Positions 11,102 through 28,258 of a stretch of 36,904 nucleotides of DNA are shown one piece after another. The stretch covers positions 1-36,904 of the forward strand of contig NZ_JANXCG010000082.1 in the NCBI RefSeq assembly GCF_025060375.1, given 5' to 3'. Position numbers and translations under genes: made by a program. Source of the DNA: Meiothermus sp. GTDB taxonomy: Bacteria > Deinococcota > Deinococci > Deinococcales > Thermaceae. The notes under the pieces were generated by a model that was not told the DNA's origin, did not search any database, and worked only from the letters and a program-made list of their open reading frames with translations. The first letter of the stretch is position 1; each line of letters begins with the position of its first letter.

Positions 11102-12241
11102 ATGGACAGAGTTCAGCGCTTGAGAACGGTTGTCGCCGCTGCGCAAAGGCACCCTGTTTACGCCGAGAAGCTAAGGCAGGTGGATGTTGACGCCCTAACC
11201 CCAGAGGGCCTCACCCGGCTTCCCCTGACCACCCGCCAGGACTGGCTGGCCTACCTGCAGGCTAACCCGCGGCCTCCCCAAGGGGCTGCGCTGATGCACC
11301 TGACCCCCAGCCCAGCTATGGGTTGGATGCCCGAGTACCTTTCTGCCGAGGATGTGGCCTACCAGGCCGAAGCCCTGGCGGCCCAGATGCGCCGGCTGGG
11401 AGTTGCAGGGAAGAGGGTGTTGGTGGCCTTTGGCTACCACGTCTTCGCTGGTGGGTGGCTTTTCCATGAGGCCCTGCAGCGGGCTGGGGCTATGGTGTTG
11501 CCCCACGGGCCCGGGGAGGCTGAGCGCATAGCCCAGCTTCAGCGGCAGTATGGCTTTGAGGTTCTGGTCTCCAACCCCAGCTTCGCAATGAAGGTGGCCC
11601 AGGCTGGGGGGCGCTTTGAGCTTTTGATGGCTGGTGGGGAGCCCTTCACTTCGGTGCCCGGATACCGGGAGCGGCTCGAGCAGGCCATAGGGGGGGTGGC
11701 GGTGGACGCCTACGGCACCTCCGAGCTGGGGGTGGTGGCCGGGGAGGGCTTGGAGAAGGATGGGCTTTGGGAGATACCCGAGATGGCGGTCTTGGAGGTC
11801 ATAGACCCCGAGACCCTGGAGCCCACCCCTGAGGGGGAGAAGGGCGAGCTGGTGGTGACCTCCCTCTCCCGCACCCTGATGCCCATGATTCGCTTCCGCA
11901 CGGGCGACTTGGCGGTGGTGAGCCGTCGTGGGGGAAGGGTTTGCCTGCCCAAGGGGGTGATTGGCCGCACCGACCTGATGGTCAAGGTCAAGGGGGTCAA
12001 GCTCTACCCCACCGAGCTGGCTCCGCTGTTGATGGCCTTTGGGATTGATCCGCGGGGTGGGGCCCAGGTGGTGGTGGAGACCAAAGAAGGCGGCACCGAC
12101 CGGCTCATTTTGCGCATCAAGGCCGAGTCGGTTCCGCCCCAGCTTGGCCCCGCCCTGCAGCAGGCTACGGGCATCCGCATTGATGAGATACAGGCCGACC
12201 CTGCCCTGGAGGGCCCGCCCTTGGTGGACAGACGCTACTGA
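11102..12241 (+). CDS. Phenylacetate-CoA-ligase-like AMP-binding protein
   Basis: Protein of 379 aa related to PaaK-type adenylate-forming enzymes, which activate a carboxylate with ATP and pass it to CoA. Recognisable parts are AYGTSELG (A5), RFRTGDLA (A7) and GRTDLMVKVKGVKLYP (A8). The phosphate-binding loop near residues 66-75, normally a Ser/Thr-Gly-rich motif, reads LTPSPAMGWM and is degenerate. The protein is also shorter than typical PaaK (about 430 aa). It may have altered chemistry or be a divergent subfamily. Start ATG with a good GAGGAG site. It is separated from the nuo operon by 216 bp. Confidence 0.8.
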   Translation: MDRVQRLRTVVAAAQRHPVYAEKLRQVDVDALTPEGLTRLPLTTRQDWLAYLQANPRPPQGAALMHLTPSPAMGWMPEYLSAEDVAYQAEALAAQMRRLGVAGKRVLVAFGYHVFAGGWLFHEALQRAGAMVLPHGPGEAERIAQLQRQYGFEVLVSNPSFAMKVAQAGGRFELLMAGGEPFTSVPGYRERLEQAIGGVAVDAYGTSELGVVAGEGLEKDGLWEIPEMAVLEVIDPETLEPTPEGEKGELVVTSLSRTLMPMIRFRTGDLAVVSRRGGRVCLPKGVIGRTDLMVKVKGVKLYPTELAPLLMAFGIDPRGGAQVVVETKEGGTDRLILRIKAESVPPQLGPALQQATGIRIDEIQADPALEGPPLVDRRY

Positions 12242-12322
12242 TGCGAATGGAGCTCCCCAGGGCTGAGACGGCTTGGCCCAGGGGCGCTGCGGTTGCCGGG
12301 CGCGGTGTCTGGCTTGGGGTGA

Positions 12323-12352
12323 TTGCTGGAAATTTTGGAACGGGGCCATACT
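12323..12352 (+). promoter_or_regulatory. Candidate promoter of the nuo operon
   Basis: TTGCTG (12323-12328), an 18-nt spacer and CATACT (12347-12352) form the best -35/-10 pair in the 216-bp gap before nuoA. Transcription would start near 12359, leaving a leader of about 100 nt. A perfect palindrome begins immediately after the predicted start. Confidence 0.5.
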
Positions 12353-12360
12353 TTTGCCGG

Positions 12361-12377
12361 CTTACAAAGGTTGTAAG
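12361..12377. promoter_or_regulatory. Palindromic candidate operator upstream of nuoA
   Basis: CTTACAA-AGG-TTGTAAG is a perfect 7-bp inverted repeat with a 3-nt centre, 9 nt after the predicted -10 element and 80 nt before nuoA. This position suits a repressor. Its half-sites face the opposite way from the Rex redox-repressor consensus (TTGTG...CACAA), so Rex is not the obvious ligand. It could also form a small RNA hairpin. Confidence 0.5.
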
Positions 12378-12457
12378 ATGTGGGCGGCGTAGGGAAGCTC
12401 GAGCCGCTTTGCCCGACTTCGTGAAGGTTGGCACGAGGATTCCCCCCGAGGAGGCAC

Positions 12458-12817
12458 ATGTCACCGATTACCGAGTATCAAGCAGTGCTGGTTTACCTGG
12501 CGGTTGCGGTTGGAATCGCGGTGCTGGCGACGGTGGTGGGGGCTCTCTTAGGCCCGAAGAAGGGAGGCCGGGCCAAGCTCATGCCGTATGAGTCCGGCAA
12601 TGACCCCGCAGGTGAGGTCAGGCGGTTTCCGGTGCACTTCTACGCGGTGGCCATGCTCTTCATCATCTTTGATGTGGAGGTGGCCTTTCTGTGGCCCTAT
12701 GCGGTGAGCGCAGGTACTTTAGGAGTGGTAGGCTTCGTGGGCCTGCTCATCTTCACCCTGTTGCTTCTGGTGGGGTTTTTGTACGAGTGGTACAAGGGTG
12801 TTTTGAAGTGGCGTTAG
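12458..12817 (+). CDS. nuoA: NADH-quinone oxidoreductase subunit A (Nqo7-like)
   Basis: Small membrane subunit of complex I, 119 aa, the same length as Thermus Nqo7. It has three membrane helices (about residues 8-30, 60-83 and 88-110) and the conserved loop [19 protein letters not shown] before helix 2, which lies near the quinone chamber. [10 protein letters not shown] is the acidic helix-2 motif. The ATG at 12458 is fixed by GAGGAGG 4 nt upstream; earlier in-frame codons lack conservation. First gene of the 14-gene nuo operon. Confidence 0.97.
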
Positions 12818-24090: not shown

Positions 24091-25508
24091 TTCACCTTGG
24101 GCTTTGGCTACCCCTGCTGGCGGGTCTGGTGCTTCTGCTGTGGCCAGGCCTGGGGCGCGGCTTCGCGGTTCTCACTTCCCTGGCCAGCCTGGCGGTTTCC
24201 CTCTACCTCTTTGCGGAGTACCCAGGGGAGGGGGTGGCCTATGCCAGTCAGACGCCCTTTCTCCTCGAGGCAGGGGTTTACTATGCGGTGGGCCTGGACG
24301 GGGCTGGGCTCCTCCTTTGGCTAGCGGTGAACCTGGTGGTCCTCCTTGGGGTTTGGCTGGCTGATGTTCCGGTGCGGTTTTTGGCCTACACCCTCATGAT
24401 GCAGACCGGGCTTCTGGGTATTTTTGCTGCTCAGGACCTGGTTTTCTTCTACTTCTTCTTCGAGGCTAGCCTGATTCCAGCCCTCCTCATGCTGTGGTTT
24501 TACGGGGGATCAGAGCGGCTCAGGGCCATATACACCTTCGCTCTTTTTACCCTGGTGGGCTCACTGCCGATGCTGGCGGCGGTCTTCGCGGTGCGCTTCC
24601 TGAGTGGCGCCGAGAGTTTCCTCTACACCGACCTAGCCGCCAAGCCGCTGGCTGGTCCGGCGGCAACCTGGGCCTTTTTGGGCTTTTTGGTGGCCTTTGC
24701 GGTCAAGACCCCGCTGTTCCCCCTCCACGCTTGGCTCCCCAGCTTCCATCAGCAAAACCATCCCTCGGGGCTGGCGGATGCGTTGGGGACGCTTTACAAG
24801 GTGGGCATCTTCGCCTTCTTCAAGTGGGCCATCCCCCTGGTCCCTGAGGGGTTTCGGGAGTGGCAGGGGCTCCTCCTTTTCCTTGCCGCTTTTGGGGCCC
24901 TGTACGCGGCCTGGCTGGCGTTTAGTGCACCCGATTGGAAGACCCTGTTGGCCTATGCTGGGGTGTCGCACATGGGGTTGGCAGCCCTGGGGCTTTTCAG
25001 CGGGACCCCTGAGGGTGCGGTGGGCGCTTTGTACTTGCTTGGTGCCTCCATGGTCTATAGCTCGGCTATGTTCCTCTTTGTGGGAAGGGTGTACGCCCGT
25101 ACTGGAAGCCTAGAGACACGGCCCGTGCGGGGTCTGGCTCGGTACGCTCCAGGTTTGTACGTTTTGGGGATGTTCCTCTTGATGGCCATGATTGGTTTGC
25201 CTGGCCTTTCGGGTTTTCCCGGCGAGCTGATGGTGCTCCTGGGGGCCTACCGGGTTGCCCCGTGGCTCACCTTTCTGGCCTTCCTATCGGTAATTGCAGC
25301 CGCGGCCTACGCCCTTACCGCTTTCCAGCGGCTTTTCCAGGAAGCCCCGCAGGCCCAGGCAGTTTCAGACATGGATGCCAGGGAGTGGGCCTTTGCAGGG
25401 GTGACGGTGGGGGTGCTGCTCCTGATGGGCCTCTACCCCAGGCTCTTCACCGCCTACTTAGAGCCGCTGGGGCGGGCTCTGGGCGCGCTTTTTGGAGGTG
25501 CCTCATGA
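24087..25508 (+). CDS. nuoM: NADH-quinone oxidoreductase subunit M (Nqo13-like)
   Basis: Second antiporter-like proton pump, 473 aa against about 469 in Thermus, with 14 predicted helices. Glu126 ([13 protein letters not shown]) and Lys207 ([15 protein letters not shown]) are the conserved channel residues, followed by the His-containing helix 8 region [12 protein letters not shown]. It overlaps nuoL by 4 nt. A 13-codon frame overlaps its stop and leads to nuoN. Confidence 0.97.
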
Positions 25509-25546
25509 CGGGGGTTTTGAGGGCCAGCGGAGGTGCCCGATGCTGA
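25505..25546 (+). CDS. Possible 13-codon frame bridging nuoM and nuoN
   Basis: ATG at 25505 overlaps the nuoM stop (ATGA). The frame reads [13 protein letters not shown] and stops at 25544-25546, just inside nuoN, whose ATG is at 25540. It contains the GGAGGT site of nuoN. It may keep ribosomes on the message across the 31-nt gap, or be chance. Confidence 0.25.
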   Translation: MTGVLRASGGARC

Positions 25547-27774
25547 CCTTGTATGTCCTGGTCGGTAGCTCCACCCTGCTGTCGTTGCTGGCTTTCGCTG
25601 TCTCTCGGGAGGCCAACCGGGTTCTGTCTGTGGCGGCTTTGGTGCTGGCTGGGCTTTTCGCTTTGTTGGGCTGGGGAGAGACGGTGGAGGCGTTCGGGGG
25701 GCTCTATCGGTTGGATACCCTCGCCCGCGGCCTGACCCTGGTGGCCGTACTGGGGGGGCTTTGGACCCTGTTGCTGGGTCCGGTCAAGAAGTTTGAGTTC
25801 CCCCTCCTGGTGCTTTACGCCGTTACCGGGATGCACCTCATGGCCAGCAGCCCCAACCTGGTGGTGCTGGTCATCGCGCTGGAGATTTTTTCTCTGCCCC
25901 TGTACGTACTCTCGGCTTGGCAGCGGGATGAGAAGGGCTTTGAGGCAGGGCTCAAGTACTTTTTGCTGGGCGCTTTGGGGGCTGCGGTTTTCCTGTATGG
26001 TGTGGCGCTTTACTACGGGGCCACCGGTAGCTTCATGGCCGGGGCGGCTGGTTCGGGGCCGCTGTATACCGCAGCGCTGCTCCTGATTCTGGCGGCCTTT
26101 GCTTTCAAGACCGCGATGGTGCCTTTCCACTGGTGGTCGCCCGATGTCTACCAGGGTAGCCCCACGGTGGTCTCCCTCTTCATGGCCACCGCGGTCAAGG
26201 CGGCGGCCTTCGCGGCCATGCTTCGCATTTTTACCCCCCAGGGTCTGGAAGCCTGGGGGGTGGGGCTGGCTGTGCTAGTGGCCCTAAGCGCCCTCTTCGG
26301 GAACCTTGGGGCCCTTGCCCAGACCGAGGCCAAGCGCCTTTTTGCTTACTCCTCCATTGCCAACGCAGGGTACGTTGGGCTTGGGCTTTTCGGCCCCACC
26401 GCGGGGGTTGCGGTGCCCTTCTACCTGCTCACCTACGCCTTGGGTACAGGCTTGATTTTTGCAGTGCTCTCCACTATCTCCAACCAGGAGGTGCCTTTAG
26501 ATCGGTTGCGAGGGCTTTGGTACCGCAGGCCCTTGCTGGCTGGGGCGCTCGCGCTGGGGGTGCTCTCGGTTCTAGGGCTTCCTCCTCTGGCGGGCTTCTG
26601 GGCTAAGTACCTGGTCTTCCAGGAGGCGGCTCGAGCCGGGCTGTACGGCCTGGTGGTGTTGGCCCTGGTGACCTCGGCGGTGGGGGCCTACTACTACCTC
26701 CGGGTCTTCTTCCTGCTTTTTGCCCAGCCAGAGCCATCCCAGGAGGTCCTGGAGCGCGAGGCTGAGGAAGCGGTGGCCCGCTTTGGCGGCTCGGAGGCGC
26801 CAGGCGCACCGCTGTCGGGGGCCCCTTTGGGCCTCACCCAGTCGCTCATGGCCCCGGCGGCGCAGCAGGCTGGTGTGGGGGTGCTTTGGATGGGGATGGG
26901 CCTTTTGTTGTTGCTCTCCTTGTTGCCAGGCCCGGCGCTGCGGGTTTTGGGGATGGGCCAGAGCCTTTCCCTGGCCGGGGTGACGCTGAAGGTCCCTCCC
27001 GATGGGGCCACGTTGGTGGCGGGACCTTTGGTCCTGGAGGGCACCGGCCGGCCCGGGGAGGACCTGGAACTTTTTGACAACGGCCAGCCCATCGGTCGCG
27101 TGACGGTGGGTCCGGATGGGCGTTGGCGTTTTGAGCTCCCCGCTTCGGCCCTTGCGGTGGGGGATCACGTCTACGAGGCCCGTGGAGGGGGTCAGCCGGG
27201 CGTAGCCCGAGCAAGGGTTACCCTGGTCGCCCCCGTGGGGTTGGCCATCACCGCCCCTGTTGATGGGGCCTCGGTGGCCCCCACAGGGTTTACCCTGGAG
27301 GGCACCGCTGCGCCGGGTCAGGAGGTCGAGGTTTTTGAGGATGGGGTGAGCCTGGGCCGGGTAAAGGCCAACGCAGAGGGCCGGTGGAGCCTTGGTGTTC
27401 CACCCCCGGCAGGGGGCACCCGGGTTTACGAGGCTCGAGCCGAGGGGGCTCCTGCCGCCCGGGTTTCCCTGGTGGTGCCCGAGGCTCAGGCGGGCGCCAT
27501 TTGCAGCCAGCGCTTTGCCCTTTCCAACCTCCAGGCGGGTGGAACCGTATCCCGACCCTTCCGCTTCGGTGGGGTGGGTTCAGCCAGCGGCTACACGGTT
27601 GTGGTCAAGCGGGGGGAGCGGGTGATTGGCCGTAGGGAGCTCTCCTTGAGCGCGGCTTGCGGTTGGAGTTACCTTTCCGACCCGGGGCCCGGGGAGGTGA
27701 CCTACGAGGTGCGTGAGGCCGGGGCCTCTGAGGCTGACCCTCCCCTGGCCGTCATCACCCTGAACGTGCGCTGA
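25540..27774 (+). CDS. nuoN: NADH-quinone oxidoreductase subunit N (Nqo14-like) fused to Ig-like repeats
   Basis: The first ~470 residues are a normal NuoN proton-pump subunit: Glu115 (ALEIFSLPLYVLSAW), Lys190 (FAFKTAMVPFHWWSPD) and Lys265 (TEAKRLFAYSSIANAGY) are conserved. Thermus Nqo14 is about 427 aa; this protein is 744 aa. After the last helix (about residues 446-463) comes a soluble region with two Ig-like repeats (about 486-563 and 573-647). Both have the pattern LEGT-PG-(E/V)-F--G--(I/L)GRV---GRW, typical of bacterial Ig-like domains. A third segment (650-744) has two cysteines, Cys655 and Cys707, that could form a disulfide. The frame is continuous, so the fusion is seen directly. 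The domain probably faces the periplasm. GGAGGT fixes the start. Confidence 0.95.
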   Translation: MLTLYVLVGSSTLLSLLAFAVSREANRVLSVAALVLAGLFALLGWGETVEAFGGLYRLDTLARGLTLVAVLGGLWTLLLGPVKKFEFPLLVLYAVTGMHLMASSPNLVVLVIALEIFSLPLYVLSAWQRDEKGFEAGLKYFLLGALGAAVFLYGVALYYGATGSFMAGAAGSGPLYTAALLLILAAFAFKTAMVPFHWWSPDVYQGSPTVVSLFMATAVKAAAFAAMLRIFTPQGLEAWGVGLAVLVALSALFGNLGALAQTEAKRLFAYSSIANAGYVGLGLFGPTAGVAVPFYLLTYALGTGLIFAVLSTISNQEVPLDRLRGLWYRRPLLAGALALGVLSVLGLPPLAGFWAKYLVFQEAARAGLYGLVVLALVTSAVGAYYYLRVFFLLFAQPEPSQEVLEREAEEAVARFGGSEAPGAPLSGAPLGLTQSLMAPAAQQAGVGVLWMGMGLLLLLSLLPGPALRVLGMGQSLSLAGVTLKVPPDGATLVAGPLVLEGTGRPGEDLELFDNGQPIGRVTVGPDGRWRFELPASALAVGDHVYEARGGGQPGVARARVTLVAPVGLAITAPVDGASVAPTGFTLEGTAAPGQEVEVFEDGVSLGRVKANAEGRWSLGVPPPAGGTRVYEARAEGAPAARVSLVVPEAQAGAICSQRFALSNLQAGGTVSRPFRFGGVGSASGYTVVVKRGERVIGRRELSLSAACGWSYLSDPGPGEVTYEVREAGASEADPPLAVITLNVR

Positions 27775-27796: not shown

Positions 27797-28258
27797 ATGA
27801 CCGCGCGCGCCAGCCCCTTGGAGGAGGGTCCGGAGTACTTTTGGGAGCGCTTTTCTGCGTATGCGCAGACCTTCCCGGTGGGCCCTGAGCCGGTCGGTAG
27901 CCCGCTCGTTGAGGTGCTCACCCCTCTGGGCCCCCTTTACGCCTTTGACCGCGGTCTCGCCCCATTCTCGGGTGGTGAGACCCCGTTAATTCTCCACGGG
28001 CAGGTGGAGTTTTGGGAGGAGACCGAGGGACAGCGGGAGGCCGTGCGGCGGATGGATGGGGGCCGTTATGCTTTTTGGGGCCAGGTGGAGGCGCTGCTGG
28101 AGCCCCCCTTTTTCGTGTTGCGGGTCTTGGGGCCAGAGGGTCGGGCTGGGTTTCGGCTGCTCCTGGCGGCCTCGGAGCCTCCTCCCTTGGAGCGGTGGGT
28201 CGTGGTGCGCCTGCGCCCTCCTTTGATGGTCTTCCGCCCCGAGGTGCCGGGCCGCTAG
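27797..28258 (+). CDS. Protein of unknown function downstream of nuoN
   Basis: I do not recognise this 153-aa protein. It has no membrane segment, no signal peptide and no cysteines. It is rich in Pro, Glu and aromatic residues, with predicted beta strands (FFVLRVLGPEGRAGFRLLLAA; WVVVRLRPPLMVF). It starts 22 nt after nuoN at ATG 27797, with GGGGGTG just upstream; a GTG at 27791 is an alternative. Position and spacing suggest that it belongs to the nuo transcript. A role in complex I assembly is possible only by context. Confidence 0.75.
   Translation: MTARASPLEEGPEYFWERFSAYAQTFPVGPEPVGSPLVEVLTPLGPLYAFDRGLAPFSGGETPLILHGQVEFWEETEGQREAVRRMDGGRYAFWGQVEALLEPPFFVLRVLGPEGRAGFRLLLAASEPPPLERWVVVRLRPPLMVFRPEVPGR

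Follow-up and report, generated by a model that had tools for sequence, protein, structure and literature searches.

Ig-like domains fused to NuoN in Meiothermus form a predicted periplasmic arm of complex I that may act as an envelope tether

The core subunits of complex I rank among the most conserved membrane proteins. NuoN/Nqo14, one of the antiporter-like subunits, comprises 14 transmembrane (TM) helices (PMC7434922, PMC3046159). The best solved relative of the NuoN core described here is Nqo14 of Thermus thermophilus (PDB 4HEA). In the genomes examined, the NuoN chains of Thermus and of the Thermus-like genera g4 and g5 were 426-431 aa long and stopped directly after TM14, with no extension and no Ig domain. 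Lineage-specific C-terminal additions to core subunits are known from Escherichia coli complex I, in which NuoB, NuoI, and NuoF carry extensions of 22-45 residues on the peripheral arm (PMC8357420); these are short and form no series of periplasmic domains. Ig-like repeats of the Big_6 (PF17936) and Ca_tandemer (NF033510) types usually occur in secreted adhesin-like proteins. An open-access literature search found no paper on a fusion of NuoN with Ig domains or on folded periplasmic domains on antiporter-like subunits; annotation databases may mention them. The parts are known, and their combination is apparently new.

The nuoN gene and its C-terminal extension

We analyzed a stretch of 36,904 nucleotides (hereafter, the window) from a Meiothermus genome near M. 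luteus, which was the closest named genome (90% identity). nuoN was the last gene of the nuo cluster, as in Thermus, with nuoA, nuoH, nuoJ, and nuoL upstream, nuoM ending at 25508, and nuoN starting at 25540 (Table 1). No internal stop codon was found when 25540-27774 was translated. NuoN residues 1-402 matched Thermus Nqo14 at 1e-113 (phmmer) and TIGR01770 at 9e-94 (315 bits, below the curated cut-off of 333), and the match to Proton_antipo_M (PF00361) indicated that the full antiporter-like membrane domain is present, as in the whole 14-TM core of Thermus. The lengths of the other antiporter-like subunits, NuoM and NuoL (610 aa), were normal.

Table 1 Features of the nuo cluster and of NuoN in the window.
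Feature	Position	Strand	Basis or remark
nuoA, first gene of the nuo cluster	12428..12817	+	PF00507, 1.8e-31
nuoM, upstream neighbour in the nuo operon, 473 aa	24087..25508	+	TIGR01972, 1.2e-110; normal length
nuoN	25540..27774	+	744 aa; single open frame; ATG at 25540, stop at 27774
NuoN membrane domain, TM1-13 (residues 1-394)	25540..26721	+	Conserved; Thermus Nqo14 alignment; Pfam Proton_antipo_M, 2.2e-58
TM13-TM14 cytoplasmic loop, enlarged (about residues 395-443)	26722..26868	+	Alignments; acidic stretch and LMAPA motif
TM14 (about residues 444-463)	26869..26928	+	Hydrophobic helix; end resembles Thermus NuoN '..LGLFPG'
D1, Ig-like domain 1 (residues 481-564)	26980..27231	+	Big_6-like; predicted fold; nearest to the single NuoN Ig domain of two sister genera
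D2, Ig-like domain 2 (residues 566-650)	27235..27489	+	Big_6/Big_7; 46-51% identity to the corresponding domain of the standalone paralogue
D3, terminal beta-sandwich domain (residues 653-744)	27496..27771	+	Structure prediction; no Pfam match; Cys655 and Cys707 invariant

Behind TM14, the chain continued for ~270 residues, with the extension proper starting near residue 464-480. A first-pass annotation of the window had reported such an extension on a complete NuoN, and the uninterrupted 744-aa frame together with matches to Big_6 (1.5e-10 over two stretches; 41.6 bits against a gathering cut-off of 27.6) and NF033510 (2e-14) bore this out; the coordinates it gave were correct to within a few residues. 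A sequencing error hiding a stop near residue 470 was rejected because many independent genomes, namely M. luteus and 12 other Meiothermus, had the same open frame. In a profile search of the window's own genome, the NuoN extension was the sole Big_6-like match, where one domain alone scored 26.0 bits, slightly below the cut-off.

The same annotation had read the extension as two Ig-like repeats followed by a third segment with two cysteines. The two repeats were confirmed as D1 and D2, which were 41% identical to each other and resembled Big_6 and Ca_tandemer repeats in sequence pattern and predicted fold, here joined to a respiratory proton-pump subunit. The third segment was revised: AlphaFold models of seven window and locus sequences contained three beta-sandwich domains (mean pLDDT 87), and the extension is hence better described as three domains than as two plus a tail. 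D3, searched as the last 95 residues, matched no Pfam family, Big_6 included. Foldseek and VIA-align recovered generic Ig/Fn3 folds for the extension and no functional lead, and a domain search found neither LysM nor another known wall-binding domain in the NuoN chain, LysM being limited to the standalone relatives described below.

The N-terminus of NuoN is usually outside, and with 14 TM helices, the C-terminus is therefore expected outside as well. Lysine and arginine residues in the predicted loops numbered 12 on the inner and 3 on the outer side, with helix limits taken partly from a low-confidence model; the membrane part of the full-length AlphaFold model of NuoN was unusable (pLDDT 50). 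The helix count, this charge bias, the conserved cysteine pair of D3, and the TM-anchored standalone relatives, some of which end in LysM, agree with the periplasmic location first proposed for the extension, which we infer with good support. The cysteine pair would then be a putative disulfide, as expected in the periplasm.

Three other features of the cluster were observed. The TM13-TM14 loop of Meiothermus NuoN (~50 residues) contained the acidic sequence EREAEEAVARFGGSEAPG and, right before TM14, the invariant motif LMAPA; the loop was much shorter in Thermus, and the helices modeled in this region were of low confidence. Immediately 3' of nuoN, positions 27797-28255 encoded a conserved protein of ~153 aa, also present in the M. 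luteus genome G008, which matched nothing in Pfam or NCBIfam. A 116-aa frame at 12241-12591, lying between an AMP-binding gene and nuoA and overlapping the nuoA frame, had no Pfam match.

Distribution and selective constraint

Among 18 Meiothermus genomes, nuoN was assessable in 17; in the remaining one (G019) it was broken and only residues 1-180 were found. A three-domain NuoN of 744-751 aa was present in 14 of the 17. One genome (G011) encoded a 664-aa form that kept D2-D3 and lacked D1, and in two others NuoN was truncated inside D1 (G017, 516 aa; G021, M. taiwanensis DSM 14542, 528 aa). These natural truncations, in M. taiwanensis DSM 14542 and the MAG KatS3mg071 (L035 4890-6473; L036 4890-6437), lack D2-D3 together with part of D1 and would be useful as natural deletion strains. 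As two genomes lost most of the arm and one lost D1, Meiothermus can dispense with it. In the sister genera g2 and g3, probably Allomeiothermus and Calidithermus, NuoN was 550-565 aa long and had one Ig domain. In 17 genomes examined from other families of the same order, the chain stopped after TM14 and no comparable extension was found; long open frames in these families proved not to be C-terminal extensions. Searches at the class and phylum levels covered the same 111 genomes. The NuoN Ig extension of Meiothermus is real and conserved.

Selection was estimated by the Nei-Gojobori method over nine Meiothermus pairs. The median dN/dS was 0.07 for TM1-13, 0.26 for D1, 0.17 for D2, and 0.13 for D3, values that are rough, with some pairs near saturation at synonymous sites or differing by very few changes. 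Purifying selection acts on every domain of the arm and, within the arm, most strongly on D3. The invariant residues of the arm were likewise concentrated in D3, and D1 was its least constrained part. The cysteine pair of D3 was kept in NuoN, in the standalone proteins, and in a DUF937 protein, and was invariant in the first two.

Standalone relatives and origin of the arm

Eight of the 18 Meiothermus genomes also encoded a standalone protein of ~305 aa, consisting of a short N-terminus, one TM helix, and three Ig domains. It shares with the NuoN extension the order of the three domains, the cysteine pair of D3, and a TM anchor right before the first Ig domain, but it is the product of a separate gene outside complex I. 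This gene lay a few bases 3' of a gene for a TM and coiled-coil protein ending in HHH_5 domains and did not adjoin respiratory genes in Meiothermus. In the Allomeiothermus-like genus g2, the standalone protein was longer (373-376 aa) and ended in LysM (1.3e-13 in G002; the same ending was visible in the G001 sequence). There, the standalone gene and a short TM/coiled-coil gene directly preceded the AMP-binding gene and nuoA; the standalone gene was two genes upstream of nuoA. In relatives from family f4, the LysM match ranged from weak to clear (L079, L077), and those in family f5 had no LysM. The LysM-ended forms are expected to face the wall.

A two-gene cassette was observed in several families of this order (L048 4743-7922, L079 520-2202, L055 6638-8060), in which a TM and coiled-coil protein, often with terminal HHH_5, was followed by a TM and Ig protein with or without LysM. 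The cassette looks like a trans-envelope pair, apparently undescribed. HHH-carrying matches in G000 were rejected as the partner of the standalone, being other proteins. Separately, a DUF937 protein of an f5 genome (G053, L075 586-1776) carried at its C-terminus a TM helix and a D3-like domain in which the cysteine pair recurs, and this ending suggests that D3 may be a mobile periplasmic module. The DUF937 proteins of the family, also examined, yielded no lead.

NuoN D3 shared 61-64% identity with the D3 of most standalones in Meiothermus (56% in G012) and 39% with that of the Allomeiothermus-like standalone, and NuoN D2 was closest to D2 of the standalone (Table 1). For the single Ig domain of G001 NuoN, identity reached 54% with D1 of Meiothermus NuoN and no more than 48% with any standalone domain. 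In a tree of D3, a domain too short for firm support, NuoN and the standalone separated weakly. The most likely and simplest history, judged from these relationships, is that a single periplasmic Ig-like domain was added after TM14 of NuoN in the common ancestor of Meiothermus and the two sister genera, and that Meiothermus NuoN then acquired D2-D3, most probably through recombination with a separately encoded envelope protein that has a TM anchor and Ig domains in the periplasm. The direction of the D2-D3 transfer is a likely one, drawn from relatedness to the envelope protein; a transfer from NuoN to the standalone is possible.

Possible roles of the arm

By these steps, complex I would have come to carry a covalent three-domain periplasmic arm with the disulfide-type D3 at its tip as the likely binding head. 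We tentatively favor, at somewhat below even probability, the explanation that stepwise fusion provided this arm and that through it complex I is held to an immobile part of the envelope, most likely peptidoglycan or a wall-bound protein. Such a tether would position the enzyme and leave proton pumping unaltered. A wall or envelope tether is favored because the standalone relatives have LysM and adjoin nuoA in g2, and the LysM relatives lend more plausibility to the anchoring to the cell wall that the first-pass annotation had proposed. Since NuoN has no known wall-binding domain, its ligand is putative. The more specific statement that Meiothermus complex I is physically tethered to the envelope by an Ig arm that came from a protein associated with the wall is rather doubtful.

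Alternatively, a second respiratory enzyme, or an electron carrier in the periplasm, may dock on the arm, which would aid supercomplex formation; a link to another respiratory complex had also been proposed in the first-pass annotation. The predicted position of the arm on the periplasmic side of one subunit of complex I, with D3 as its most conserved part, is consistent with docking; however, D3 is common to the standalone and a DUF937 protein with no visible respiratory link, and the Meiothermus standalone gene lies apart from respiratory genes. We regard docking as unlikely. It is distinctly unlikely that the extension has been carried along as an almost neutral passenger, harmless and so retained. 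The loss of D1 in one genome, the truncation in two, and the constraint on D1, the lowest within the arm, would fit such a passenger, but dN/dS was far below 1 in all three domains and nearest to the membrane-core value in D3, and the arm is retained across the genus.

Of much the same low probability is an arm that merely stabilizes or assembles complex I, packed on the periplasmic surface of neighboring subunits. This would accord with the covalent addition to a single subunit and with the invariant residues of D3, but Ig arrays normally project away from the membrane, Thermus complex I works without the arm, and naturally truncated forms of NuoN occur. Stabilization at high temperature, which the first-pass annotation had suggested, was weakened by the absence of the extension in Thermus and the loss of most of it in two Meiothermus. 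Thermus grows hotter than Meiothermus. Heat stability is unlikely to be the main role of the arm because Thermus lacks it. Finally, release of the Ig part by cleavage or separate translation, to give a periplasmic protein that is free or held by one anchor and resembles the standalone paralogue, which has its own gene in eight Meiothermus genomes, is very improbable: despite a conserved Met ahead of TM14, no Shine-Dalgarno-like sequence was evident by eye before this Met in the window and no cleavage signal was recognized.

Returning to the envelope tether, we know of no covalent wall anchor previously described on complex I, and the Meiothermus arm, if it is one, would be the first known to us. 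Should the arm prove to be a tether, it would allow a genetic approach to the question of whether respiratory complexes in bacteria are held in place and whether this influences function. The graded series of none, one, and three domains and the natural truncations, within the family of the structural model Thermus, make this question directly testable.
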